Below the pieces are notes generated by a model, which was not told the DNA's origin, searched no databases, and saw only the letters and a program-made list of their open reading frames with translations. A program made the translations under genes and the position numbers. A stretch of DNA of 64,000 bases from Nakamurella deserti (GTDB lineage Bacteria; Actinomycetota; Actinomycetes; Mycobacteriales; Nakamurellaceae), in the NCBI RefSeq assembly GCF_003260015.1, contig NZ_QCXS01000002.1, forward strand, positions 2,108,001-2,172,000. The letters are read 5' to 3'. This document shows, in pieces, positions 3,731-40,126 of this stretch; position 1 is the first letter of the stretch, and every line of letters starts with the position of its first letter.

Positions 3731-4060
3731 GCCCTCGACAACGTCGTCACCACCGGACGGCCCCACGGTCACGGGCCGGACGGCACCCGACGACCACCCC
3801 GCGGGTGACGGGACGCCCTCGACGGCGTCTCGCCTCCCTGTCGGCCTGCCGTCAGACCCCGGACGGCACCCGACGACCCACCCCACGAGCGACGGGACAC
3901 CCTCGACAGCGTCATCGCCACCCGACGGTCCCGTCCGACGCCGGACGGCACCCGACGACCCACCCCACGAGCGACAGGACACCCTCGACGGCGTCGTCGC
4001 CACCCGACGGCCCGCCGTCCGACGCCGGCCGAAACCCGACGACGACCCCCCGGCCCGGTG
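3731..4060. repeat. Imperfect ~83-bp tandem repeat array
   Basis: Three clear units begin with GGACGGCACCCGACGACC at 3778, 3861 and 3943. A decayed fourth starts near 4027, and a partial unit precedes the array from about 3731. Spacings are 83, 82 and 84 bp. Shared internal blocks include ACCCTCGAC and GTCGCCACCCGACGG. Because the period is not a multiple of three and drifts by single bases, the array is unlikely to encode a repeated peptide, although long open frames cross it. It sits just beyond the 3' end of the response-regulator gene and upstream of sigD. Confidence 0.8.
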
Positions 4061-22769: not shown

Positions 22770-23700
22770 ACCCGGCCGGGCCTGGCGACCTTCGTCCGTT
22801 GTCCGGCCGGGGAGGAACCGCGCTCCGGCTCGGCCTCCACGGCCGAGCCGGGCCAGGCGACACCTGCCCAGGCTCCCTCTGTTGGCGGTCCAGACGGCGA
22901 GGTACCGCCGTCTGGCCTGCGGCGCTGACTTCCGTCGGCGGCCCGGCCGGGTTTCACCGGCCAGGGCTCGGCCTCCGCGGCCTGGCCCCGGCAGGGCGAG
23001 ACCTGCCCGGGCTCGCCCTGGCTACCTCCGTCGGCGGCCCAGCCGGGTCGAACCGCCAGCCGGCCTGCGGCGCAGGCTTCCGTCGGCGGCCCAGCCGGGT
23101 CGAACCGCCAGCCGGCCTGCGGCGCAGGCTTCCGTCGGCGGCCCGCCGGGGAGGAACCGCCAGCCGACCTGTGGCACTGACCTTCGTCGGGGGCCCGGCC
23201 GGGTCGGAGCGGCCAGGGCTCGGCCTCCACGTCCGGTCCCGGCCACGCGAGACCTGCCCAGGCTCGCCCTGGCGACCTCCGTCGCCGCCCCGGCCGGAGA
23301 GGAACCGCCAGCCGACCTGTGGCGCCGACCTCCATCGGGGGCCCGGCCGGGGAGGAACCGCCAGCCGACCTGTGGCGCCGACCTTCGTCGGCGGCCCGGC
23401 CAGAGATGAGCCGACTCCGGCTCGGCCTCTACGGCGGGGCCCCGACCAGGCGAGGCCTGCCCAGGGCTCGCCCTGGCGACCTCCGTCGGCGGCCCAGCCG
23501 GGGAAAACCCGCGAGCCGGCCTGCGGCGTCAACCTGCGGCGCCGACCTCCGTCGGTGGCCCGGCCGGACATGAAACGCGCCCCGGCTCGGCCGCCACGGC
23601 CGAGTCGACGTGTCCCACCGCCCGATCTCGACGGCCTGGTAGGACCCGCCGGCCGGCCTGCCCCGTCGACCTCCGTCGGCGGCCCGGCCGGTGGGACCGG
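22770..23700. repeat. Composite imperfect tandem repeat field (~52-53 bp units)
   Basis: Nearly the whole gap after the GH1 gene is made of degenerate units. The clearest run has CGTCGGCGGCCC-type blocks at 23029, 23081, 23133 and 23185, exactly 52 bp apart, and again at about 23280, 23333 and 23386 (53 bp). Each unit contains AACCGCCAGCCGRCCTG. Longer units carry an insertion built from GGCTCGGCCTC and GAGACCTGCCCAGGCTCG blocks. The period is not a multiple of three and open frames cross it in several frames on both strands, so I regard it as non-coding. Confidence 0.8.
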
Positions 23701-25129: not shown

Positions 25130-25569
25130 CCCTCCGGTCGACCGACGCACGACCGTCCGGCGCGGGCCTCCGAGGGACCGGTCGCACGTGTGGTAACTAA
25201 CGGCCGGTCTCAGGTCCGCCGGAACCCCGTCACTGACGCACGACCGTCGGCCCCGGACCCGTCGTCCGCGCGGCGCGGACCTCCGACAATCGGTCCCACG
25301 TGTGGACCGCCGGCCCGGCCTCAGGTCCGCCGGAACCCCGTCACTGACGCACGACCGTCGGGCCCGGACCCGTCGTCCCCGCGGCGCGGACCTCCGAAAA
25401 ACCGGTTTCACGTGTGGACCGCCGGCCCGGCCTCAGGTCCGCCGGAACCCCGTCACTGACGCACGACCATCCGGCCCGGACCCGTCGTCCCCGCGGCGCG
25501 GACCTCCGAAAAACCGGTGGCACGAGGGAAACCCACCGGCGAGGCCTCAAATCCGCCGGAACCCCGTCA
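25130..25569. repeat. Imperfect ~112-bp tandem array reaching glmM stop codon
   Basis: TCAGGTCCGCCGGAACCCCG-type blocks start at 25210, 25321, 25433 and 25547, spacings 111, 112 and 114 bp, with a decayed partial unit from about 25130. Units share GACGCACGACC, CCCGGACCCGTCGTCC, GGCGCGGACCTCCGA and, in most, a CACGTG. The last unit runs into the glmM stop: CCGGAACCCCGTCACTG is identical in the array and across the glmM 3' end. Single-base drift of the period argues against a coding repeat. Confidence 0.85.
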
Positions 25570-26916
25570 CTGCCGGCCGACCACCGCGGCGAGGCGTTCG
25601 GCGATTCCCGACGCTGCTTCCGCGGTCGGCGCTTCGACCATCACCCGCACCAGAGCCTCGGTGCCGGAGGGACGCAGCAGTACCCGCCCAGAGTTCCCGA
25701 GCTCGACCTCGGCGGCCTCCACGGCCTCGGCGACCTGGACCGAGGACGCGACGGCGGCCTTGTCGGCCACGCGGACGTTGAGCAGCACCTGCGGGAACTT
25801 GGTGACCACGGAGGCCAGCTCGGCGAGTGACGTGCCCGTCTGCGCCATCTGGGCCATCAGGTAGAGGGCGGTCAGCAGCCCGTCGCCGGTGGTGGCGTGC
25901 TGGGCGAGCACGATGTGACCGGATTGCTCGCCGCCGAGGCTGTAGTTGCCGGCGCGCATCTCCTCGAGCACGTAACGGTCACCCACACCGGTGGTTCGGA
26001 CCCGGATCCCCTCGGCCCGCATGGCCTGGTGGAAACCGAGGTTGGCCATCACGGTGGTGACGACCGTGGCGTCGGCGAGTTCACCGCGGCTGTGCATGGC
26101 GGTGGCGAGGATGGCCAGGATCGGGTCACCGTCGACGACGTTGCCGGTCGCATCGACGGCGAGGCAGCGGTCGGCGTCACCGTCGTGGGCGATGCCGAGG
26201 TCGGCGCCGTGAGCGACGACAGCGGCTCGGAGGTGGTCGAGGTGGGTGGAGCCGACGCCGTCGTTGATGTTCAGACCGTCGGGCTCCCCGGCGATCACGA
26301 TGACGGTGGCACCGGCTCGCCGGTACGCCTCGGGCGCGACCGTGGAGGCGGCGCCGTGGGCGCAGTCGACCACCACGGTCAGACCGGCCAACGGATGCGG
26401 GGTGACCAGCAGCAGGTGGTCGAGGTAGCGCCGGGCCGGCTCGTCCGCCGTGGTGATGCGGCCGATCCCGGCGCCCACGGGCAGCGGGTGACCGGATCCC
26501 ATGCCGGCCTCGATCGCGTCCTCGACGGCGTCGGGCAGCTTGACCCCGCCGGCACCGAAGATCTTGATGCCGTTGTCCGGCATCGCATTGTGCGACGCGG
26601 AGATGACCACCCCGAGGTCGGCCCCGAGGTGGTCGGTGAGGAACGCGACCGCGGGCGTCGGCAGAACGCCGAGCAGAATCACGTCGGTGCCGGCCGAGGC
26701 CAGGCCGGCGGCGACCGCCGCCTCCAACATCTCGCCGCTGGCCCGGGGGTCGCGACCGACGACGGCCGTGGCCCGTGTCCCTGACGCCAAACGGCCCTGC
26801 GCCCGGGCCTCGGACAGCACGAATGCCGCCGAGGTCGCGAGGCGCAGGGCCGTTTCGGGCGTCAGTTCGACGTTGGCCAGACCGCGTACTCCGTCTGTGC
26901 CGAACAGTCTCGCCAT
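25567..26916 (-). CDS. glmM: Phosphoglucosamine mutase
   Basis: Interconverts glucosamine-6-phosphate and glucosamine-1-phosphate for UDP-GlcNAc synthesis; 449 aa. [15 protein letters not shown] is the family N-terminus. The phosphoserine loop is [15 protein letters not shown], the metal loop [11 protein letters not shown], the sugar loop GGEQSGHI, and the phosphate-binding loop [13 protein letters not shown]. It lies 10 bp after rpsI, so it is probably co-transcribed with rplM-rpsI. Its stop codon is embedded in the last unit of a tandem repeat array. Confidence 0.97.
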
Positions 26917-26926
26917 GAGGCCTGAA

Positions 26927-27502
26927 TTACCGCTTCGAGTACTGCGGAGCCTTACGGGCCTTCTTGAGACCGTACTTCTTCCGCTCCTTGACGCGGGCGT
27001 CGCGGCTCAGGAAGCCGGCCTTCTTCAGCGGGGGGCGGTCGTTGACGTCGAGGTCGATCAGCGCACGCGCGATCGCCAGACGCAGCGCGCCGGCCTGTCC
27101 GGTGATGCCGCCACCGACGAGCGTGGCGTGGATGTCGAAGGATTCCGCCTTCTCCAGGGTGACCAGCGGCTCCTTGATCAGCTGCTGGTGCACCTTGTTC
27201 GGGAAGTACGAATCCAGGGTGCGGCCGTTGAGCGTGAACTCGCCGGTGCCGGAGGTCAGGCGGACCCGGACCACGGCTTCCTTGCGACGACCGACGGTCT
27301 GGATCGGACGGTCGACGACGATGCGGAGCGGGGCCGAGGTGACCGACGGCGGGGCGTCGGTGTCGCCGTCGACGGGGCCCTCCGTGCCTTCCAGACCCAG
27401 GTGGCTGAGGTCGATGTCGGCGGTCAGTTCGCCGTCAGGGGTGAACGCATCGGTCACGGTGTCGTCGTCTTTCGGGTCGGTGCCGGAGGTGGGCTGGCTC
27501 AC
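26927..27502 (-). CDS. rpsI: 30S ribosomal protein S9 with acidic N-terminal extension
   Basis: S9 of the small subunit head. The conserved part starts near residue 65 ([16 protein letters not shown]) and ends in the hallmark [11 protein letters not shown], whose tail reaches the P site. At 191 aa it exceeds the usual 130-170 because of an acidic N-terminus rich in Asp, Glu, Thr and Pro. GTG at 27502 overlaps the rplM stop (GTGA), supporting the long form as the translated start. Confidence 0.95.
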
Positions 27503-27942
27503 TGGGAGACCTGGCTGATCTCGAAGGGCGCGGGCTTCTGCGCGGCGTGCGGGTGGTTCGGGCCGGCGTAGACCTTCAGCTTGCTCGAGAGGCTGCGGCC
27601 GAGCGGACCGTGCGGGAGCATGCCGGTGATGGCCTTCTCCACGAGACGCTCGGGCTTGGTCTCGAGCATCTGGCCGACGGTGCGCTGGCTCAGACCACCC
27701 GGGTAACCGGAGTGCGTGTAGAGGATCTTGGTGTTCTTCTTGTTACCCGACACCGCGACCTTGTCCGCGTTGATGATGACGACGAAGTCACCGGTGTCGA
27801 CGTGGGGCGCGAAGATCGCCTTGTGCTTGCCACGCAGGAGCTGCGCCGCCTGGCTGGCCAGTCGGCCGAGAACGACGTCGGTGGCGTCGATGACGTGCCA
27901 GGCGCGGGTGATGTCACCGGGCTTCGGGCTGAACGTACGCAT
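27499..27942 (-). CDS. rplM: 50S ribosomal protein L13
   Basis: L13, 147 aa, an early-binding large-subunit protein. Features: [33 protein letters not shown] and the [12 protein letters not shown] block. The ATG at 27942 has AAAGGA about 10 nt upstream. First gene of rplM-rpsI-glmM; a strong promoter candidate lies about 330 bp upstream. Confidence 0.97.
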
Positions 27943-28273
27943 GCCTCTTCTTTGTCCTTTGTGCTGGGTTTTCGGTGGTGGGTCCGCTCCCCGGGGGAAC
28001 CAGCGTGACCAGCACACCACCAGGTAACACACAGTCGTGAACGCCCGTCGCCTGGAGTGGACCCCCGGGTCACCCCGGGACTGCATCTCCGACCGACGAG
28101 CGGTCCTACTCCACATGTCGAGGTCCATGGCGTTCCGGTGTCGCGGCCGGTACGACCGAGGTCGCTCCATGCTGCTGCACCGACCCGATCCGGGCCTGTA
28201 CTGCCGTACTGCTGTTGATGCTCGAGGTGACGCTTCGTCCGCGCGGACAGTTCGTCCTTGCGCACGACGATCG

Positions 28274-28303
28274 AGAATACCGCGCCAGGGGGCGGCGGGT
28301 CAA
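28274..28303 (-). promoter_or_regulatory. Promoter of the rplM-rpsI-glmM operon
   Basis: On the minus strand TTGACC (28303-28298) and TATTCT (28279-28274) are separated by 18 bp, the best sigma-70-like pair in this part of the window. It predicts a start near 28267 and a leader of about 325 nt before rplM. Confidence 0.55.
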
Positions 28304-28470
28304 AGTGAGCCGTGACGGACCGGGACGCCGAGCCCACCGGCGGCGCCGGTGACGGCCCAGCGCACGGACGGTAGCCACGGTATCGAACGTCGCCGGGCTG
28401 CTGCACCGCCCGACGCGACTCTGGACCGGGAGTCAGAGAGTCCTCGATGCAGCCGGAATACGGGGTAACG
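28304..28470. other. Intergenic DNA between rplM promoter and repeat array
   Basis: GC-rich, no gene or clear regulatory motif seen; short open frames only. Confidence 0.4.
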
Positions 28471-28800
28471 ACGGCGGACGGCACTGCGGTGCCGGGCCAC
28501 CGCCCTACGACCGGGCGTCCCACCGGGTGGGCCGCGGACCCGCCACCGCTGTCCAGTCCGGTGCCGGTGCCTGAGCACGACGACGGCGCTCGACCTTGCG
28601 GTGCCGGGGCCACCCCCCTGCGCCCGGCGTCCCACCGGGTGGCGCAGCGGACCCGCCCCCGATGCTTGGTGCCGGTGACCACGACGGCAGACGGCACTGC
28701 GCTACCGGACCGTCGCTCCCGCCTCGGCGTCCGACCGGGTGCGCAGCGGTCCGCCCGGCCGGCGCCCGCCGCCCTGGCGGTAGCGGACACCGGACCACAC
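28471..28800. repeat. Imperfect ~100-113-bp tandem array between rplM and ESX genes
   Basis: ACGGC(R)GACGGCACTGCG-like unit starts occur at about 28471, 28582 and 28684, and the block CGTCCCACCGGGTG (third copy CGTCCGACCGGGTG) recurs at 28515, 28628 and 28728. A further decayed unit may follow. Units also share GGTGCCGGKGCCAC and GCGGACCCGCC. Spacing varies (111/102 and 113/100), so it is not a codon-phased repeat. The remaining DNA to 29256 shows no gene. Confidence 0.7.
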
Positions 28801-29256
28801 GGCGCGACGTCCGCACGCGCCGTGCGGCGCCGGCCCGACCGCCGACCGTTGCCGCTCCCCGTCCGCAGGCCGGCGGACCTTTCCTCACAAGCCGAGTGCG
28901 ACTGGTCGGTCGCCGCCGTGCTCAGTGCCCTCCAGGAATGACAGGCCCACGCCGACAGGCGGCTATCGCCTCCGGACGACGGCCCCGGCCACGCCCGCTG
29001 TGCCGTACCGCCCCGGGCCCGGTGCTGATCCCTGCTGTGGCCGCACCGCTCGGGGCCCGGTGCCGGCCACCCCCCGCTGTGGCCGGCACCGACCCGACGC
29101 CCGGAATCCCTCCCGTCCCGGCTGCCGCCCGTCGGACGGATCCGGGCGACGCGACGCGTGGTCGCCGCTGATCGCGGCCGGCAGCTTCCTGGTTCCCGTC
29201 AGCCGCCCCTCACCCGCCGGCGCCGCTGCGCCGCGGTCCGCCCCACGCGGACGGGG

Positions 29257-29559
29257 TCAGAGACCGGACCAAGCGGCGGCCACCCGCTGGTCGGTGGCCA
29301 GGTACCGGCGGTTGGCCTCGCCGACCGTGACGTGCACCGCAGCGAGCGTGCGGTTCAGCTCGTCGGCCGCGGCGTTCCATTTCGTCTGCTGCCGCAGGTA
29401 GGCCTGCTTGCCGTCGCCCTCCCAGGTGGCGAGCAGCGGCGCGAGGTCGCTGTCGAGTTCGGCGAGTGCGGCGGCGATCTGCCGCTGGGACGCCGCCATG
29501 GCGACCTCCGCAGCGGTCAACTGGTTGTAGTCGACCAGGATGGGTGAGCCACTGGACAT
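29257..29559 (-). CDS. WXG100-family ESX secreted protein (EsxT/EsxU-type), first copy
   Basis: A 100-aa helical-hairpin protein of the ESAT-6/CFP-10 family. The turn motif is TWEGDG (W-x-G) at mid-length, and the C-terminal secretion signal YxxxD appears in RRYLATDQRV. The ATG at 29559 (MSSGSPILVDYNQL) gives the usual length. It is probably an export substrate of the adjacent EccC machine and heterodimer partner of the WXG100 protein 150 bp upstream. Position between rplM and eccC corresponds to esxT/esxU of mycobacterial ESX-4; I cannot tell which copy is which. Confidence 0.9.
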   Translation of the reverse strand: MSSGSPILVDYNQLTAAEVAMAASQRQIAAALAELDSDLAPLLATWEGDGKQAYLRQQTKWNAAADELNRTLAAVHVTVGEANRRYLATDQRVAAAWSGL

Positions 29560-29709
29560 GGATGTGTTCCTCTCGTGTCGAGACAGGCGTCTCGGTGGTG
29601 TGGGTGGGTGCGGTTCACGGCGTGGTGCCGGTGCGCAGGTGGTGGAGCCCGGCACCGGCGCCCGGCGGCGGCAAGTGCCGGACGGCCGGGCCGGGCCGGG
29701 CCGGGAACG

Positions 29710-30021
29710 TCACATGCGCAGACCGCCGCCGGCTCCCAGCAGGGCGGTACCGGCGTTGTCGTCCTCGATGCCGTAGGCCTTGGCCTGCTCGGCCAACATC
29801 GACTCGAAGGTCGCGATGGCCTTCTGCAGCGCCCGGGCGTGGCGGTCGTACCCGACCATCAGTGCGCGCAACGTGTTGCCGCCGTTGCCCTTCCAGCTCT
29901 TGAGCGTCCCCTCCGCGGTGATGCCGATCTCGTTGATCTGGCGGTCGATGGTGCTCTTCGCCGCGGCCATGTCGGCCACCGCCTGCTGCATGACGGCGAC
30001 GCTGGTGCTGAATGTCCCCAT
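29710..30021 (-). CDS. WXG100-family ESX secreted protein, second copy
   Basis: A 103-aa WXG100 protein. The turn is LKSWKGNGGNTL, and the tail has YGIED, matching the YxxxD/E export signal, followed by a Gly-rich end. The ATG at 30021 is preceded by AAGGGGGA at good spacing. It lies downstream of eccC and upstream of the other WXG100 gene on the same strand, so the pair is likely co-expressed and forms a heterodimer. A GGCCG-type short reiteration occupies part of the 150-bp spacer between them. Confidence 0.9.
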   Translation of the reverse strand: MGTFSTSVAVMQQAVADMAAAKSTIDRQINEIGITAEGTLKSWKGNGGNTLRALMVGYDRHARALQKAIATFESMLAEQAKAYGIEDDNAGTALLGAGGGLRM

Positions 30022-30163
30022 GGAATTCCCCCTTGGATGCACAGCGCCGGACGGTCCGGCGCTCGGTAGAGCGGTCCTGCGGTCATGGCGGGAGGTGCGG
30101 CGGGCGGTGCGGGGCCCGCCACGGCCTCCCGAGCCCGGTGGTCGGGTGGCCTGTCGAGGTGGG

Positions 30164-33100
30164 TCAGTCGTCGGCCAGGGCGAGCTGGATCAGCTCCGAC
30201 GAGGTGCGGGTGACGAAGAACCCCCGGCCGGGTGGTTGTGGAGCGGCACGCCGGTCGCCGTGCAGCGGGCCCTCGTCGGGCGGTCCGGACAGTACGAGTC
30301 CACTCGCCCCCAACTCACGCATCTGCTGCAGCAGCGGGTCGTAGAGAGCGCGGCCGCCTCCGGCGGCGCGTCGACAGACCACGATGTGCAGACCGATGTC
30401 CCGCGCGTGGGGCAGCAGGTCCAGCAGGGGCAGCAGTGGATTGGCCCCCGCCGCCACGAGGTCGTAGTCGTCCACGAGCACGAAGAGGTCAGCGCCCGTC
30501 CACCAACCGCGGTCACGGAGCTGCTCGGCGCGGACGTCGCCGGACGGCAGGCGGCCGGTCAAGAGCTCGACCGCGTCGGCGATGAGTCCCGCGGTGGCGC
30601 GGGGTGCGGTGGAATGACCGGCGAGCCACGGCTCGGGCAGGCGTCCCAGCAGGGTCCGGCGGTGGTCGACGATCAGGAATCGTGCCTGCGTCGGGGACCA
30701 CCGGGCCGCGACCGTCGTGGCGAAGGTCCGGAGGAACGAGGTCCGGCCGCTGCCACCGTCTCCCCAGACCAGCAGGAACGGTTCGGCGGCGACATCGACG
30801 CCCACGGTGCGGAGGTCGGACTCCGCGACTCCGATGGGTACGCCCGCGACAGCCTCCGCCCGGGGGCGGGGCAGGTCCCGGACCGCGACCGTCGCCGGCA
30901 GCAGCCGGATCGGCGGAACACCGGCGCCCGGCCACCGGGTCCGGCGCTGGCTGATCAGCTCCTCGACCGCCTCCCGGGCGCCGAGCGGACCAGGCGGCGC
31001 CACCAGGAAGTGCAACCCGTCGGCGGTGAGGCCGCGGCCCGGTGTCCGCGCAGGCACGCCCGCCGCGCGCCGCCGGTCGATCTCCGACTCGGCCGGATCG
31101 CCGAGCCGCAGCTCGAAACGCAGCGTCATCAGGTCCCTCATCGCGGGACGGACGTCCGCCCAGCGCGCCGTGGCCAGGATGACGTGGATGCCGTGGGCCA
31201 ACCCCCGTTGCACCAGAGCGGTGACCGTGGGCTCGAGCTCCTCGAACGCGGCACGGAACGTCGCCCAGCCGTCGATGACCAGGAAGACGTCGGGACGGTC
31301 GTGGCCACCCGACTCCCCCGTCCCGGACGCCTCGCGGTCTCCCAGCTCGGCCGCGAGTTGGGCCAGCATCCGGTGCACCAGCCGGGGGTCACCACGGCGA
31401 CCGACGGAGCCGACCTGCGGCAGTCCGGCCAACGGCGTGAGTCCGCCGCCACCGAGATCCAAGACGTGGCAATGGATACGGTCCGGTCCGTGCCCGCGAC
31501 TGAGGGCCAGCAGCATCGACGTCAGCAGGGTCGTCTTGCCCGACCGGGCGCCACCCACGACGAGAGCGTGCCCGGTGCTGCCGGTGAAATCGGCCCACAA
31601 CAGGTCACGCCGCTGATCGAAGGGCCGGTCGATGAGTCCGACGGGGACCCGCAGGTCGAGGGGATCCGTCCCGACCGCCAGATCGTCGATCGGAGGAGCC
31701 TTGTCGAGGGGCGGGAGCCAGATGGCGGTGGCCCGGGGGCCGTGTGCCAGCAGACGCGACACCCAGAATTGGAGCAGGGAGGGCGTTCCCGGATCGGCCG
31801 CAGTCGGCGGAGCGGGCGGCGCGTCGTCGGCGGGTCGCCCGGCGCGCGGCACCGCACCGAAGAGCCGCACGGCCGCGGCCACCGACCGCACGCGCGCGGG
31901 CTCCGGGGCCGCGACCGCACCGGAGACGAAGGCGGCGGTGAAACGGTATGCCGTCTCCGCGCCGTCCTTGAGGTAGCCGACACCCGGAGTGGTCGGCAAC
32001 CGGTACGCCGCGTCGTCGCCCAGCACGGCCCGTGAATCGGCGGCGGAGAACGTCTTCAGCGCGATGCGGAACGACAGGTGCGCATCGAGCCCCCGCATCC
32101 GCCCCTCCTCGAGCCGTTGCGACGCCAGGATCAGGTGGACTCCCAGAGACCGCCCGAGACGACCGAGTGCGACGAAGGTCTCGGCGAGATCGGGCTGTTG
32201 GACGAGCAGTTCGGTGAACTCGTCACAGACCACCACGAGTGTCGGCAGCGCCGGCAGTGCAGGCGTGTACGTGCGGATCCGCTGGTACTCGACGGTCGAC
32301 GACGCACCCGCGGTGCGCAACAACTGCTGCCGTCGGCGCAGCTCGCCGTTCAGCGCATCTCGCATCCGCTCGACCAGCACCGCCTCGTCAGCCAGGTTCG
32401 TGATCACCGCTGCGACGTGCGGCAGTCCTTCGAGACCGAGAAACGCCGCCCCACCTTTGAAGTCGATCAGAACCACGTTCAGGGTGGCGGGGCCGTGCGT
32501 GACCACCAGAGCCAGCACGATCGTCCGCAGGAGCTCCGACTTACCGGATCCGGTCGCGCCGATCACGAGTCCGTGCGGTCCCATGCCGCCGAGCGCGGCT
32601 TCCTTGAGGTCGAGATGCACCGGCGTACCGGCATCGTCGGTGCCGATGGGGATCCGCAGGAGGTCGCGGCCGGCGGCGGTCTGGTGGGTTTCGGGCCGGT
32701 GGTCCGCAGCCGCCCGCAGACCGAGCAGCGCCACCAGATCGGGTACCGGGTGCCCGCCTCCGGACATGCCACCGGGAGGCGCAGCGTGCGGCGGACCGGC
32801 GAGCGCGCGCGCCGCGACGTCGGCCATGGCGGCTCCCACGAGATCCGGTGTGCCCCAACGGACGAGCCCGCCACTGCGCTGGCGGTACAGAGCGGTGGCG
32901 GTGGCATGCAGTGCGACAGCACCGGGGACCGTCGAGGTGCCGAGCCCGTCGACGACGACGGCCACGACCGGGAGCCGATCCGCGACGGCGAGCATCTCGA
33001 CGATCCCGGCCGGCGGTGACACCAGCACCACCACCGTCCGAGCGGCCCTGCCTGGTCGGTCGATCCACCGGAGGAGCCGGCCGACGTCAGCGGTCCGCAA

Positions 33101-33856
33101 CGGCTGATCGTGGTCGACGCCGCCGCGGTGGTGCGGAAGCCACTTGAGCCAGTCCCACCCGGTGACGTCGTCGGCGACGAACACCGCGATACGGCAGTCG
33201 GTCGGCCCGGCGGCCCGCGCGCACCGCAGCACCATCCCACGCACCAGATCCGCTGCGCGCGAACCGGACACGGACACGACGACGCCGGGGCGCAGGTCGA
33301 CGGTCAGCGGCATGTCCGGAGTTTCGGCCCGCGCTTCGAGGAACCACCGGCGGGCGAGAACCGCGAAGGGCTCGGGTTCGGTGTCCGGGTCGTCGGCGGG
33401 CCGGACACACGACACCACCGCCGGAACCGCCCCGGTGCCCACCCGGACGGCCGAGCGTGGCGCACCTGCACCGCCGCCGGCGACGACCAACGCGTCGGCG
33501 TGCGGATGCCGACGGCGGTCGGTCGCACGGTGCTCGGCCTCGGCGGCGTCGACCGCGGCGCGGGACCGCTCCAGTCGCCGCAGGAAGCGGTCACGTTCGG
33601 CGGCCACGGTCGCGGCGGGCTGTGTCTGCCGCCCCCCGCCGGCGATCATCATGCCCACCAGCGACACGACCATCAGACCGCCCATGAGCAGGGAGGTGGT
33701 CCCGCCGCCACCGATGACGAGGAAGCCGACGGTGCCGGCGAGCATCACCGCCGGGAGGATCACGACGAAGACACTGCGCGGTGCCGGGGGCTCCAGGACA
33801 GGAAGCGGCGGCACGGTGACATCCGTTGCTTCCTTGACCTTTTCGGCGTCGCTCAT
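30164..33856 (-). CDS. eccC: Type VII secretion ATPase EccC (ESX-4 type), unsplit
   Basis: Membrane-bound motor of the ESX system, 1230 aa. Two transmembrane helices lie at about residues 29-49 and 53-73. Three FtsK/SpoIIIE-type ATPase domains follow: D1 with GATGSGKSELL (Lys near 439) and LVVVCDEFTELL, D2 with GGARSGKTTLL (Lys near 774) and VFLVIDGW, D3 with WGDGGSGRTSFL (Arg near 1038 instead of Lys) and FVLVDDYD. The length matches unsplit EccC4 (about 1236 aa in M. tuberculosis). The ATG at 33856 follows GGGGGAGGG. The D3 Lys-to-Arg change suggests weak hydrolysis there. Confidence 0.95.
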   Translation of the reverse strand: MSDAEKVKEATDVTVPPLPVLEPPAPRSVFVVILPAVMLAGTVGFLVIGGGGTTSLLMGGLMVVSLVGMMIAGGGRQTQPAATVAAERDRFLRRLERSRAAVDAAEAEHRATDRRRHPHADALVVAGGGAGAPRSAVRVGTGAVPAVVSCVRPADDPDTEPEPFAVLARRWFLEARAETPDMPLTVDLRPGVVVSVSGSRAADLVRGMVLRCARAAGPTDCRIAVFVADDVTGWDWLKWLPHHRGGVDHDQPLRTADVGRLLRWIDRPGRAARTVVVLVSPPAGIVEMLAVADRLPVVAVVVDGLGTSTVPGAVALHATATALYRQRSGGLVRWGTPDLVGAAMADVAARALAGPPHAAPPGGMSGGGHPVPDLVALLGLRAAADHRPETHQTAAGRDLLRIPIGTDDAGTPVHLDLKEAALGGMGPHGLVIGATGSGKSELLRTIVLALVVTHGPATLNVVLIDFKGGAAFLGLEGLPHVAAVITNLADEAVLVERMRDALNGELRRRQQLLRTAGASSTVEYQRIRTYTPALPALPTLVVVCDEFTELLVQQPDLAETFVALGRLGRSLGVHLILASQRLEEGRMRGLDAHLSFRIALKTFSAADSRAVLGDDAAYRLPTTPGVGYLKDGAETAYRFTAAFVSGAVAAPEPARVRSVAAAVRLFGAVPRAGRPADDAPPAPPTAADPGTPSLLQFWVSRLLAHGPRATAIWLPPLDKAPPIDDLAVGTDPLDLRVPVGLIDRPFDQRRDLLWADFTGSTGHALVVGGARSGKTTLLTSMLLALSRGHGPDRIHCHVLDLGGGGLTPLAGLPQVGSVGRRGDPRLVHRMLAQLAAELGDREASGTGESGGHDRPDVFLVIDGWATFRAAFEELEPTVTALVQRGLAHGIHVILATARWADVRPAMRDLMTLRFELRLGDPAESEIDRRRAAGVPARTPGRGLTADGLHFLVAPPGPLGAREAVEELISQRRTRWPGAGVPPIRLLPATVAVRDLPRPRAEAVAGVPIGVAESDLRTVGVDVAAEPFLLVWGDGGSGRTSFLRTFATTVAARWSPTQARFLIVDHRRTLLGRLPEPWLAGHSTAPRATAGLIADAVELLTGRLPSGDVRAEQLRDRGWWTGADLFVLVDDYDLVAAGANPLLPLLDLLPHARDIGLHIVVCRRAAGGGRALYDPLLQQMRELGASGLVLSGPPDEGPLHGDRRAAPQPPGRGFFVTRTSSELIQLALADD

Positions 33857-34021
33857 GGTTCCCTCCCCCCGGAGAACGTGGCGGTGGACAACTCCACCGG
33901 GCCATCGAGCGGCAACCATACGATGGCGGCGCGATGCCTCCGGGCGTCTGTCCACATCCCGTCCGGGCGGTTCCACGAGCACCGGTGATCCCGCCGCGAC
34001 ACCCCAGAAACGAGCCCGCCC

Positions 34022-35335
34022 ATGCACGACGCCACCTCGACGACGCACCGCCGTGTCGCGGTCATGGTTCCGACGGGGAGGGTCGATCTGGTGGTTCCGG
34101 CGGAGCTCACGGTTGCCGATCTGGTGCCGGTCGTGCTCGAACTCGGTCGGGTCGCCGCCGACACCAGCGGGCACGGCTGGCACCTCGGACGGGTCGGCCG
34201 TCCGGCACTGGACCCAGAACGGTCGCTACCCGCTGCGGGCGTCCGGGACGGCGACCTGCTCGACCTGCGGCCGTCGACCCTCAGCGGGGTGGCGCCCGTT
34301 TTCGACGAGATCACCGATGCAGCGGCGGCTGTCGCCGCCGACAGCATCCACGCCCGGCGCAGCTTCGCTCGGCCGTCGGCGCTCGCCACCGCAGCGCTGC
34401 TGCTGGCGTTGTCCGTCGTGCAGGCCTGGACCGGCGGCAGCGCCGCCTCCAGCGCCGCCGTGGCCGTCGTCCTGCTGGTCGCGGCCTGCCGCGTCGCCCG
34501 GCGGATGCGGGACCACCCGGTCGCTGTCGTCCTCGGGTCCGCGGCGGTGGGTTTCAGTGCGGCGGCGGTCGCGGTGTGGGCACCGGGACCGGACGTTGCG
34601 ACGGCGGTCGCCGCGACGGTGGCCGGCGTCGCTCTCGTGGCGACGCGGCTAGTGGCCGCGGGTCGGCCCGTGTTCGTGGCGCTGGCCGGAACCGGCCTGA
34701 TGGTGAGCGCCGGACGTGCTGCGTCGCAATTACTCTCGTGGTCGTCGACCGAGGCCGCCGCGATCGCCGTCGTGGTGGCCGTGGCGGTGCTACCGCTGGT
34801 GCCGCGGGTCGCATCACGGGCCACCGGTCTGCGGCGGGCGGCCTGGTCGGGGCGAGCCGGCGTGTCCGGTGACGGGTTGCCCGCGGTGATGGCGTCGGCC
34901 CGTCGCGCGGTGGACACGGTGGCGGGTCTGTACGCCGCGGTCTCCGTGCTCGGGTGCGGCGCCGGTACCGTCCTCACCGGTGCGGGCGGCCTGGCTGTGG
35001 TGCTGGGGGTGGTCGTTCCGCTGGTGTTCCTGCTGCGGACGCGGTCGGTCGCCGTTCCCACGCAGGCGGCGGCGCTGGGTCTGCCGGCGGTCCTGTCCCT
35101 GCTGGTGGGCGGCGCGCTGATCGTCCGGCAGCTGTCGGTGTCGCCGGGGGTCATGACGGTGGGTGGCGTCATCGTGGCGTGCATGCTGCTCGCGGTCGGG
35201 CGGCACGAGGCGGGGCACCACCGGCCGCCGTCGTGGGGTCGGGTCCCGCGGTTCGTGGAGGGGGTATCGGTGCTGTCGGTGGTTCCACTGGCGGTGGCCG
35301 TCGTGGACGGCTACCGCGCGGTCCGTCACTGGTGA
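34022..35335 (+). CDS. eccD: Type VII secretion channel protein EccD (ESX-4 type)
   Basis: Polytopic core of the ESX membrane complex, 437 aa. An N-terminal ubiquitin-like domain of about 85 residues (RVAVMVPTGRVDLVVPAEL ... GDLLDLRP) is followed by about 11 hydrophobic helices, the family topology. It is divergent from eccC across 165 bp and convergent with eccB, whose stop is 7 bp away. The start at 34022 has a weak ribosome site. In mycobacterial ESX-4, mycP follows eccD; here it does not. Confidence 0.9.
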   Translation: MHDATSTTHRRVAVMVPTGRVDLVVPAELTVADLVPVVLELGRVAADTSGHGWHLGRVGRPALDPERSLPAAGVRDGDLLDLRPSTLSGVAPVFDEITDAAAAVAADSIHARRSFARPSALATAALLLALSVVQAWTGGSAASSAAVAVVLLVAACRVARRMRDHPVAVVLGSAAVGFSAAAVAVWAPGPDVATAVAATVAGVALVATRLVAAGRPVFVALAGTGLMVSAGRAASQLLSWSSTEAAAIAVVVAVAVLPLVPRVASRATGLRRAAWSGRAGVSGDGLPAVMASARRAVDTVAGLYAAVSVLGCGAGTVLTGAGGLAVVLGVVVPLVFLLRTRSVAVPTQAAALGLPAVLSLLVGGALIVRQLSVSPGVMTVGGVIVACMLLAVGRHEAGHHRPPSWGRVPRFVEGVSVLSVVPLAVAVVDGYRAVRHW

Positions 35336-35342
35336 GTGCCGG

Positions 35343-36803
35343 TCAGGGTCCTTCCGCGGGTTGCGGGGACGGCCCCGTGGTGGGCGCGGCCGTCGGCACG
35401 CCCGTGATCTCACCGGGATCCCACGCGACACCCGCACTCTCCACAGTCAGCGGCGGTCCCGCCGAGAGCAGGCCGACGAGGGCGGCGGGAACCGCTGGAG
35501 GCGTCGCGCCGTCGTCGGTCAGGCCCAACCGCGTGGCCACCTCCGCGCCGAGTGGGTACACCACCCCGGCTCCGGTGATCAGGCGGTCGACCGGATCGGC
35601 GTCCCCGGCGGCGTCGACGACCCGCACGACCGCGCCGGCGCCCGGCGGCATCAGGATGCGGTCCACCCGGCTGCCGGGCGCGCTGACGGACGTGCCCTCG
35701 AGCGCACCTCCGGCGCTGAGGCCCCAACCAGCGGTGGTGCCCTGCCACGTCGCACAGAGGGAGTCGTCCGCCGGGACGAGCCGGGGGGCCGTCGGGGGAA
35801 GCGCCGTGGTGACCGTCGGCGGCTCCTGGGTGTCGGGCAGCGCGGCGACCTGCCATCCCTGGACGGGGACCACACCGGAGCCGATCCGGGCGGCCGCGAG
35901 GTCGGCCACCACCGGTGTCAGGGATTCCACACCGTCCCGGTGCAGCAGATGCAGCGTCATGCGCCCGTCCGCCTGTTCAGTACGCAGCACCGCTCCGACC
36001 GGGACGGGATCACCGGCTGCATCGGTGATCTCGACGTCGGCGCGGCCGCCGGCGCCGCTCGGCACGGGGGCCGTGGGCGCGGCGACGGCGGGCAGTACCG
36101 ACGTCAGGGCGCCATCCACCGGTCGTGGAGATGCCCCGGTGACGCCGAGCGCGTCGGTCAGCGCGCGGTCGGTCGGGTCGACCGGGATGCTGCGGCCCGC
36201 CCAGATCAGGTGATCCGCCGATCCGCCGGCGCGGTCGTCAGTCCTCACCAGTGCGGCAGTGCTCGCCGGCATCGAGATCCCCGGCGCGGGGGCCCCGAAG
36301 ACTGCCGTGGTCGAGCTCGACCCGTCAGCGGCCGACTGCACGCACAGCGTCCACCCGGTGGTGATCAACCGGTCCCTCGTCGGCAGTTCCGCAGGGGCCC
36401 CCGCGATGCCGATCAGCGGCCCGCGGGGCACACCCTCGATGTCGGCGCCCGACACCTGCAGGGGCTCCGGCGCGACGGGTGTGTCTGCCGCCAGGAGCGC
36501 CGACACCAGGTTCAGCGCGGGGTGCAGGACTCCGTCGCGGTTGAGATACACCGCTCCCGAGCCGGTGTCGACCAGCACTTCCGCGGCGGACCAGTCCGGT
36601 GCCGGACGGACCGCGGCGATCACCCCGGCACCGGCCAACAAGGCGAGGGCCAGGCCGAACGACGCCACCGTGCTCCGCCGGGCGAGGCGGCCGGGATCGA
36701 CCGTGGGTGATGTCGTGCCCACGGTCAACGCGAGGTCCATCCGGCGCCGCGCGTAGCGGTGTGCCCGCAGTTGTGCGGGTCCGATCACGCCGCCTCGTTC
36801 CAC
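35343..36803 (-). CDS. eccB: Type VII secretion protein EccB (ESX-4 type)
   Basis: Single-pass membrane protein with a large periplasmic repeat domain, 486 aa. The cytoplasmic N-terminus RAHRYARRRMDLALTVG and one helix around residues 48-66 (STVASFGLALALLAGAGVI) are typical, followed by VDTGSGAVYLNRDG and the Cys-containing segments (LCVQSA, LCATWQG). The GTG at 36803 has a near-perfect AGGAGGTG 5 nt before it. It ends Pro/Thr-rich. The protein belongs to the same membrane complex as EccC, EccD and EccE. Confidence 0.93.
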   Translation of the reverse strand: MERGGVIGPAQLRAHRYARRRMDLALTVGTTSPTVDPGRLARRSTVASFGLALALLAGAGVIAAVRPAPDWSAAEVLVDTGSGAVYLNRDGVLHPALNLVSALLAADTPVAPEPLQVSGADIEGVPRGPLIGIAGAPAELPTRDRLITTGWTLCVQSAADGSSSTTAVFGAPAPGISMPASTAALVRTDDRAGGSADHLIWAGRSIPVDPTDRALTDALGVTGASPRPVDGALTSVLPAVAAPTAPVPSGAGGRADVEITDAAGDPVPVGAVLRTEQADGRMTLHLLHRDGVESLTPVVADLAAARIGSGVVPVQGWQVAALPDTQEPPTVTTALPPTAPRLVPADDSLCATWQGTTAGWGLSAGGALEGTSVSAPGSRVDRILMPPGAGAVVRVVDAAGDADPVDRLITGAGVVYPLGAEVATRLGLTDDGATPPAVPAALVGLLSAGPPLTVESAGVAWDPGEITGVPTAAPTTGPSPQPAEGP

Positions 36804-37012
36804 CGTGTCACCTCCTTCGTGGACGCCCGGTCCGTCGCCGACGAGGACGGATGCCCGGCGACGCTAGCGAGTCGCGGGTGGTCGGCCCGCCGGTTGTCCA
36901 CAGCGCCCCGTCACCGCCCGCAGCTGTGGACAACGTCGGTGCCCGCACCGCCTGATGCCTACGGTGGGCGTTCGGTCGGCGGGTGGGGTGCGGACCGTGG
37001 GTGAGGGGGTCG

Positions 37013-38158
37013 GTGGTGTGGGGACACGACGCGGGACGGGCGCAGTCGCGCGCCTTCCGGTGGCAGGCCGCGGTGGTGGTGCCGGTCGGAGTCGCTCTCT
37101 GGCGCCCGGCGGACACGGCCATCGCCCTCGCCGCGATCGTGGTGGCGACGATGGTCGTCCTGCTGCTCACCGTTCCGGCGGCACTGCGGTGGTGCCGTTG
37201 GGCGGGTCGGGTCACCCGGCGTGGGTGGCGGATCGCGGAGGACGTGGCACCTGAACCGGGTGCGGCTCCTGGCCGAGCGGTGCTGTCCGACGCCCCGCCG
37301 CTGGACCTGGTGTTCCGCCGTGGCCGATGGGTGGTGGTGATGGAGGTCCGCGGGCCGACGGGCGGGTCCGGTGACGGCGCTCCGCTCGCGCTCCTGGCGC
37401 CGTTGCTGGAGTCGGCCGGCGTGGTGATCGAGACCATCCAGTGGCTGCAGACGTTCGTGACGACGACCCCGGCTGCCCTGCCCGACGGTGTCGCGCCGGG
37501 GCGGACGCTGCTCGTCCTGCGCATCGATCCCGCCCGCAACCTCTCGTCGCTGCAGGCTCGCGGAGGTGGTGAGGACGGTGCGCGGCGGCTCGTCGCGGTG
37601 ACGGTCGCCCGCGCGACGGCCCTGCTCGCGCCGCGGGGGCTGCGTCCGCGGCTGCTCGACGGTGCGCAGACCCGCGCGGTGTTCGCCGCGGCCGACGCCG
37701 CCCCAGGACCGTCCGACCCGGCGGCTCTGCGCTCGGCAGGCGCCGGAACGTGGGAGCGCCGCCGCGATCTGCGGCGTTCCGGCCGGCACCACCGGTTGTT
37801 GTGCTGGGCATCGGGAACCGACGATGACACCGACGTCGGCACACTGTTGACGCCGGGTCACGTGGATTCCGAGCCGGTCGCGGCTCCCGTGCACACGGCT
37901 GTGGTCGGATCGGAGTGGATCGGATCGGAGTGGATCAGGGCCGGTCCCGGCGGTCGGCGCACGGGCGTGCTGCGGCTGACGGCTTCCCGCCCGGCGGATC
38001 TGGACCTGCTGGAGCGCTGGGCCCGCCGCCGTCTCGCGGCCGGCGGGCGGGAGTCGGCAGCCGGAATCACACCCCGGGTGGGTGTCGATCAGCAGTGGCC
38101 GTTGTACCTGGCGACGCTGCCGGGTGGCCCGCCGGGCGGGCGAGGTCCGGACCGTTGA
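37013..38158 (+). CDS. eccE: Type VII secretion protein EccE-like
   Basis: A 381-aa protein with two N-terminal hydrophobic helices (WQAAVVVPVGVALW and AIALAAIVVATMVVLLLTVPAA), then a soluble domain rich in Val/Arg/Gly with LLVLRIDPARN and a C-terminal helix region LDLLERWARRRL. This topology and the place next to eccB point to EccE, which is divergent in sequence. GTG 37013 follows GAGGGGG closely; GTG 37016 or the earlier 36983 are alternatives. M. tuberculosis ESX-4 lacks eccE, while some other actinobacteria have it. Divergent from eccB. Confidence 0.72.
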   Translation: MVWGHDAGRAQSRAFRWQAAVVVPVGVALWRPADTAIALAAIVVATMVVLLLTVPAALRWCRWAGRVTRRGWRIAEDVAPEPGAAPGRAVLSDAPPLDLVFRRGRWVVVMEVRGPTGGSGDGAPLALLAPLLESAGVVIETIQWLQTFVTTTPAALPDGVAPGRTLLVLRIDPARNLSSLQARGGGEDGARRLVAVTVARATALLAPRGLRPRLLDGAQTRAVFAAADAAPGPSDPAALRSAGAGTWERRRDLRRSGRHHRLLCWASGTDDDTDVGTLLTPGHVDSEPVAAPVHTAVVGSEWIGSEWIRAGPGGRRTGVLRLTASRPADLDLLERWARRRLAAGGRESAAGITPRVGVDQQWPLYLATLPGGPPGGRGPDR

Positions 38159-38242: not shown

Positions 38243-39448
38243 TCAGGCGGCCGGCGGCCGGTCCTGGGCTCCCCCGCGGTCCGACACCGCTGCGGACCGC
38301 TCGGTGGCGGCGTCGGACGCCGCCCGCACCGCGCGCGTCAGGTCCGCCCGCTGCCGCAGCGCGGCGTCATCGGGGTAGTCGACCCCCATCAAGGTCAAGC
38401 CACGGGCCGGCGCCCCGTGGACGGCGCTGGTCCGCCGACGGGCGGCCAACAACTCGCGGGGACGTGCCACGGGCATGCGGCCGTCCCCCACCGCCAGCAA
38501 CGCACCCACCAGTGACCGGACCATCGAATGGCAGAAGGCGTCCGCGGACACGTCCACGGCGACGACACCGGGTTCGTCGGGCACCTCGCGGACGCTGAGC
38601 GCCTGCAGCTCGCGGATGGTGGTCGCGCCGTCGTGGGCGGGGGGCTTGCAGTACGCGGCGAAGTCGTCGAGCCCGATCAGCGTCTGCCCGGCCGCCGCCA
38701 TCCGGTCCACGTCCAGCGGACGCGACCAGGCCAGGGTGTCGCGCCGCCGTAGCGGGTTCACCCCGAACTCGGTGGCGGCGATGCGGTAGCGGTAGTGCCG
38801 CCGGAGAGCGGCGAATCGGGCGTCGAAACCGTCGGGCGCGACGGTGATCCGCCGGACCCGCACGTCGTCGTCGAGCAGCCCGGCCAGGCGGCGCAGCAGG
38901 CCGAAGGCGCCACGCTCCACCGGTGTCAGTCGGTCATCCTGACCGGCTGGTGACCGCCGCGCCAGGGAGATCAGCACCGCGGGGTCGACGTCGATGTGCG
39001 CGACCTGCCCCAGCGCGTGAACGCCGGCGTCGGTCCGTCCCGCGACGCCGAGGGGCACCGGGCGACGGAACAACAGTGCCAACGCCGTCGACAGCTCCCC
39101 GGCGACGGTCCGGCGGCCCGGCTGCGCCGCCCACCCGGAGAAGTCCGTGCCGTCATAGCCCAGGTCGAGCCGCAGCCGCAGCAGGCGCCCGGACTCCGGT
39201 CGCCCAGCCGACGCGGCGACCGCACCGACCGCACCCGAGACGCCCGGATCCGGGGCGTGCGTCGACGACGGATCACCAGCAGCCTCGACCGGTTCCCCGA
39301 CACCCACCGACCCGGCGGGCCCGGTGTCGCCGGAGCCGGTGGCGCCGGAGCCGGTCTTCCCTGAGCCGGCGTCCCCGGAGACGCCGACGGACCCGGCGGT
39401 GGGAGCTGTGGGCTCCACACCACCGGGTCCGTCGGTGGGGTACGTCAT
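38243..39448 (-). CDS. truA: tRNA pseudouridine(38-40) synthase TruA with low-complexity N-terminus
   Basis: Converts U38-40 of the anticodon stem to pseudouridine. The catalytic Asp lies in GRTDAGVHALGQVAH; LDLGYDGTDFSGWAAQPG marks the true domain start near residue 92, and FCHSMVRSLVGALLAVG the C-terminal part. The predicted 401 aa is longer than the usual 250-290 because of about 90 residues of Gly, Ser, Thr, Pro and Ala. Either the extension is real or translation begins nearer the domain; no strong internal ribosome site was found. Confidence 0.93.
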   Translation of the reverse strand: MTYPTDGPGGVEPTAPTAGSVGVSGDAGSGKTGSGATGSGDTGPAGSVGVGEPVEAAGDPSSTHAPDPGVSGAVGAVAASAGRPESGRLLRLRLDLGYDGTDFSGWAAQPGRRTVAGELSTALALLFRRPVPLGVAGRTDAGVHALGQVAHIDVDPAVLISLARRSPAGQDDRLTPVERGAFGLLRRLAGLLDDDVRVRRITVAPDGFDARFAALRRHYRYRIAATEFGVNPLRRRDTLAWSRPLDVDRMAAAGQTLIGLDDFAAYCKPPAHDGATTIRELQALSVREVPDEPGVVAVDVSADAFCHSMVRSLVGALLAVGDGRMPVARPRELLAARRRTSAVHGAPARGLTLMGVDYPDDAALRQRADLTRAVRAASDAATERSAAVSDRGGAQDRPPAA

Positions 39449-39478: not shown

Positions 39479-40126
39479 CTACTTGGTGTTCTCGGTGCCG
39501 TCGGCCGGGGCCTCGGTGCTCTCGGTTGCCGGAGCCACGGAGATCTCCTCGGCGACGGCCTCCTGAGCGGCCGCCTCGGTGGTGACGTCGGCGGCCGGGG
39601 CCTCCGTCGTCGCGTCGGCGGTCACGGTCTCGTCGGTCACGGTCTCGTCCGCGACGGTCCCGTCGGCGGGCGCGGCAACGGCTGCGCCGCCCTTGGCCTG
39701 CTTGGGGCGGTCGGCGTTGTTGGACGTCGCCGCACGACGGGCGACCCGCGAAGCGGCCGAGGTCACGGTCTCCTCGGTGATGATCTCGATGATCGCCATC
39801 GGGGCGTTGTCGCCCTTGCGGGGCAGCACCTTGACGATGCGGGTGTAGCCACCCGCACGGTTGGCCACCGCCGGCGCGATGTCGGCGAACAGGGTGTGCA
39901 CGACGTTCTTGTCCGAGATCACCTTCATGACCTCACGACGCGAGTGCAGGGTGCCCCGCTTGGCCGAGGTGATGAGCTTCTCGGCCAGCGGACGGAGCCG
40001 CTTCGCCTTGGCCTCGGTGGTGGTGATCTTGCCGTGCTCGAAAAGGGACTGCGCCAGGTTGGCCAGGATCAGTCGCTCGTGGGCCGGCGATCCGCCGAGG
40101 CGGGGACCCTTCGTGGGGGTGGGCAT
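39479..40126 (-). CDS. rplQ: 50S ribosomal protein L17 with acidic C-terminal tail
   Basis: L17, 215 aa. The conserved domain is residues 1 to about 125 ([54 protein letters not shown]). About 90 further residues are Ala/Thr/Glu/Asp-rich low complexity, longer than most L17. It is the distal gene of the alpha operon, separated from rpoA by 194 bp with a strong hairpin. Confidence 0.96.

Follow-up and report, generated by a model that had tools for sequence, protein, structure and literature searches.

Mycosins are considered core parts of ESX secretion systems. All five mycobacterial ESX systems include MycP, and a mycosin is listed only for T7SSa and not for T7SSb (PMC11217815). In M. marinum, secretion and stable complexes require MycP1 and MycP5, independently of protease activity (PMC5082899). 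ESX-5 complexes without MycP5 keep the EccB:C:D:E stoichiometry but lose the ordered EccB outer assembly (PMC8131196). What makes mycosins essential in mycobacteria is their structural role, not proteolysis (PMC5082899; PMC8131196). A natural system that lacks a mycosin makes this need testable outside pathogens.

The window analysed here, a 64-kb stretch of DNA, comes from a 4.63-Mb genome of the genus Nakamurella (6 contigs, 99.55% complete). It contains an ESX block flanked by glmM-rpsI-rplM on one side and truA-rplQ-rpoA on the other, with the following features:

25567..26916, minus strand: glmM, flanking the ESX-4 syntenic block on the left (identified from the sequence)
26927..27502, minus strand: rpsI
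27499..27942, minus strand: rplM, left border, start taken at MRTFSPKPG
29257..29562 (ORF to 29655), minus strand: WXG100 protein 1, EsxT/U-like, W-E-G motif (TIGR03930 55 bits, PF06013 57 bits)
29710..30021 (ORF to 30042), minus strand: WXG100 protein 2, W-K-G motif (TIGR03930 26 bits, PF06013 24 bits, both below cut-off)
30164..33856, minus strand: eccC, 1230 aa, with two TM helices at the N terminus and three ATPase domains of FtsK type (TIGR03925, EccCb, 717 bits; TIGR03924, EccCa, 617 bits)
34022..35335, plus strand: eccD, ubiquitin-like domain and multiple TM helices (TIGR03920 122 bits, PF08817, PF19053)
35336..35342: 7-bp tail-to-tail gap, the site of mycP in relatives
35343..36803, minus strand: eccB, one TM helix, GI-x-GAP motif kept (TIGR03919 242 bits)
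36983..38158, plus strand: eccE (PF11203 39 bits, above the gathering score; TIGR03923 50 bits, partial, below cut-off)
38243..39448, minus strand: truA, right border of the block
39479..40126, minus strand: rplQ

The six genes named in the initial annotation (two WXG100 proteins, EccC, EccD, EccB and an EccE-like protein) are real at the positions it gave and match their own families. The listed reading-frame limits stood in part: the eccC and WXG100 genes are present, but their likely starts lie further in, with eccC likely beginning at the ATG at 33856 (MSDAEKVK...) rather than at the first in-frame codon, 34183, and the WXG100 genes having likelier starts inside the listed ORFs, at about 29562 and 30021. 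EccC, EccB and EccD all score above the cut-offs of their models (TIGR03924, TIGR03925, TIGR03919 and TIGR03920), and linked WXG100 substrates are present, one above cut-off and one weak. From the esx genes to truA, the genes are packed too closely to accommodate eccA, PE/PPE or espG.

The roughly 1.3 kb between rplM and the first WXG100 gene (27943-29256) holds no recognisable gene by Pfam searches of ORFs or by Rfam; none of the ORFs at 28.4-29.4 kb matches Pfam, and an Rfam search of the window from 20 to 50 kb returned no match. An intergenic tandem array of 3.7 copies of a 112-bp unit lies downstream of glmM (25158-25572), and similar GC-rich arrays occur at 3732-4043 (82-84 bp units) and 23027-23413 (52-53 bp units).

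The stop codons of eccD (plus strand, 35335) and eccB (minus strand, 35343) lie tail to tail, separated by the 7 bp first described. The reported absence of mycP from this junction extends well beyond it, as the TIGR03921 model and a six-frame genome search detected no mycosin in the locus, the 64-kb window or the whole genome; the best genome-wide TIGR03921 score is about 77.7 bits (76-78), against a cut-off of 278.75. The initial annotation had left room for a subtilisin-like mycosin, or a mycP, encoded elsewhere, and proposed either a distant protease or none. A mycP elsewhere, which it had named as the refuting result, was looked for in the genome assembly and not found, so what is left of that proposal is a system that works without a mycosin or one that is decaying, to which an unrecognised, non-homologous substitute must be added. 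Because neither the cluster nor the genome encodes a mycosin, the locus is a variant of T7SSa and not a complete member.

Two arrangements dominate in the order. Type A, which in families f7 and f14 lies at the rplM..truA site, runs esx-esx-eccC(-)-eccD(+)-mycP(+)-eccB(-); type B runs eccC(-)-eccD(+)-eccB(+)-esx(+)-esx(+)-mycP(-). The window locus is type A minus mycP, and its chromosomal site (rplM/glmM..truA/rplQ) and alternating strands are as expected of ESX-4. EccE had been taken to make the locus odd, a view that the comparison does not support: a PF11203 protein adjoins eccB in eight of ten comparable loci (L054, L058, L059, L061, L064, L181, L182 and L183), and no PF11203 match was found beside eccB in the other two, L185 and L168. 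EccE in ESX-4 loci is usual outside M. tuberculosis. Since EccE beside eccB is common in type A, it is an ordinary part of this locus, and the loss of mycP is the single departure from type A.

The rarity of this loss was gauged in 299 genomes drawn from the order. EccB, counted at E 1e-40, is present in 197, and only 4 of these 197 are without a match to the mycosin model at E 1e-58 when the lists are compared by eye: this genome, N. multipartita and two family f16 genomes with matches at about 1e-54. That threshold is imperfectly specific (Bacillus subtilis also matches), so linkage to eccD and eccB was checked as well. A mycosin lies inside all 32 annotated clusters of the order that hold eccD and eccB together, nearly all with eccC, a count that leaves out the lone-eccB loci (L053, L063, L065-L068, L184) and a locus at a contig end (L180). 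The only such clusters without one are this locus and N. multipartita L021. In other orders, 16/18 eccB clusters contain a mycosin (14 directly, 2 after flanks were added), and the remaining two are near contig ends. The absence of this core component is real, confirmed and unusual. An EccB query against genome contigs gave no matches, an EccC query returned 75 named loci, none from Nakamurella, and a literature search of partial coverage found no mention of a mycosin-less T7SSa.

A screen by the motif GTSx[AS]xP had pointed to several families without a linked mycosin; these candidates were rejected, the mycosins being present with the motif lost. Three Mumia loci (L137, L138, L164) carry eccC and eccD with no eccB or mycosin recognised within 10 kb, and are possibly another reduced or diverged T7SS. 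In six loci (L053, L063, L065-L067, L184) eccB is present, with no eccC recognisable in the roughly 9 kb to each side.

Mycosins of type B loci have lost catalytic residues. Among the 15 loci of families f3, f12, f14 and f16, 14 carry another residue in place of the catalytic Ser and all 15 in place of the oxyanion Asn; Ser and Asn are likewise lost in L187 (f2), bringing the totals to 15/16 and 16/16, and several type B mycosins are also without Asp and His. Type A and f14-g35 loci have 15 mycosins, each with all four residues (Asp, His, Asn, Ser) in place. The pseudoprotease loci are L069-L072, L169-L179 and L187, with example type B mycosin genes at:

L070, 6979-8379
L071, 11527-12870
L072, 11783-13219

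Judged by these residues, the mycosins of this widespread sister ESX type are natural pseudoproteases, and their predicted inactivity agrees with experiments in which mycosin protease activity is dispensable. No description of catalytically dead type B mycosins was found in a literature search of partial coverage.

Within the genus, the position of truA was established in each of the 17 Nakamurella genomes. Thirteen of the 16 congeners have rplM within about 0.1-4.5 kb or less of truA with no ESX genes between, and in the other three the rplM-truA stretch is not informative. EccB is confined to this genome and N. multipartita, leaving 15/16 congeners without it. From the empty site and this distribution we infer that the genus has mostly lost ESX-4, which here would be kept at its ancestral place without mycP. 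In a tree of 31 EccCs, a split (support 80/91) separates the window protein, the type A loci and L185 from all others, among long branches; the branch of the window protein, at 2.19 changes per column, is the longest of the 31, and that of the L021 EccC measures 1.69. The test does not reject a topology that unites the window and L021 as one clade (p-AU 0.235); the mycosin may therefore have been lost once or twice, and a shared origin of the two is neither shown nor rejected. Both mycosin-less systems have changes at the same four EccD positions; these were dropped as a shared signature, about two being expected by chance overlap.

Gene content, synteny, the lack of a mycosin in the genome and its presence in relatives' clusters together suggest that this is a chromosomal ESX-4 (T7SSa) at the ancestral rplM..truA site that has lost mycP and is probably still a working WXG100 exporter. 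Function without a mycosin is likely on these comparisons, and decay is possible. In such a system, the EccB/C/D/E membrane complex would assemble as in ESX-5 and EccC would drive the WXG100 pair across the membrane. The outer chamber would be built from EccB oligomers and lack the mycosin trimer by which it is stabilised in other systems. The remaining Ecc proteins may have co-evolved so that loss of this cap is tolerated, and the very long branch of EccC would fit this too. The EccB keeps 39 of the 43 columns conserved across 73 EccBs, a deviation equal to the median of the 73; Walker A and B are intact in NBD1 and NBD2 of EccC; and the GC3 of the ecc and esx genes (0.83-0.92) is like that of neighbouring genes. 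These features favour a gene set that is under selection. Several points weigh against a working system: MycP is essential in M. marinum, most congeners are without ESX-4, so that this copy too may be in the course of being lost, the Walker A lysine of NBD3 is replaced by arginine, the second WXG100 protein scores weakly, and the placement of EccC in the tree is weak because of long branches. The NBD3 change was rejected as a unique feature, since seven other EccCs share it.

The opposite reading, which we regard as unlikely, is that the complex no longer assembles after the loss of mycP and that the remaining genes are decaying, with the other Nakamurella genomes as the end state. The vacant site in 13/16 congeners, the lack of EccB in 15/16, the longest EccC branch of the 31 and the lost NBD3 lysine all fit such a relict. 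However, six ORFs remain open over about 7.9 kb with a GC3 matching that of their neighbours, and the EccB and NBD1/NBD2 motifs are conserved. A branch as long as that of EccC, in a frame that is still open, would be hard to reach without selection and argues for it.

Still a working system, but with a replacement part, is a possibility that we consider improbable. Here an unrecognised protein would take the place of the mycosin, either one of the four S8 peptidases in the genome or a non-S8 membrane-anchored protein encoded elsewhere. Sister-ESX mycosins have diverged so far that their active sites are gone, suggesting that only the fold may matter. Yet TIGR03921 gives even diverged mycosins about 180-250 bits, well above the best score here, which belongs to a 461-aa S8 protein (C2:13874) adjoining a CHAT-like gene; judged by eye, it lacks the mycosin layout, with neither an N-terminal signal nor a C-terminal TM helix. 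Each of the other three S8 proteins lies in a frame longer than 1000 aa, and none of the four is linked to the ESX-4 locus. That mycP was dropped or split in an assembly of six contigs is very improbable, as the junction lies inside a 2.9-Mb contig, eccD and eccB end properly, the six-frame genome search found no mycosin fragment near the locus, and the finished genome of N. multipartita also has no mycosin.

If the retained ESX-4 does function, a working T7SSa has dispensed with its mycosin and EccB, perhaps with EccE, has been rebuilt to hold the outer chamber. A mycosin would then be no universal structural need and, taken with the dead sister mycosins, the path would lead from protease to pseudoprotease to loss; we give this wider proposal about even chances. 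Should ESX complexes be buildable without the cap, a comparison of EccB, EccD and EccE would show how; otherwise, the locus captures a secretion system in the course of its loss. With its intact-looking machine, the Nakamurella ESX-4 offers a natural test of the requirement for a mycosin cap.

Among known systems, M. tuberculosis ESX-4 (Rv3444c-Rv3450c) has the same location (glmM-rpsI-rplM / truA-rplQ-rpoA) and gene order; unlike it, the Nakamurella locus has eccE and is without counterparts of mycP4 and Rv3446c. ESX-4 with EccE shares the order and strands (esx-esx-eccC(-)-eccD(+)-[mycP]-eccB(-)-eccE(+)-truA) at rplM..truA and all core membrane proteins, but here mycP is absent from cluster and genome, and the proteins are only about 27-48% identical. 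This form is likened to that of M. abscessus and Nocardia-like bacteria, genus names applied by analogy from the literature (PMC11217815). The N. multipartita cluster L021, from the same genus, likewise is without a mycosin, but its eccC-eccD-eccB genes lie on one strand at another genomic site, with no eccE, mycosin or WXG100 gene recognised in 20 kb. The neighbours of these three genes (L021, 3546-11002) are a lysyltransferase-like gene and a MoxR-DUF58-transglutaminase set. Type B clusters share the T7SSa core in another gene order, and they keep a mycosin whose catalytic residues are mostly lost, whereas here there is none. The T7SSb of Bacillota likewise runs without a mycosin, but shares with T7SSa only the EccC/EssC ATPase and the WXG100 proteins.
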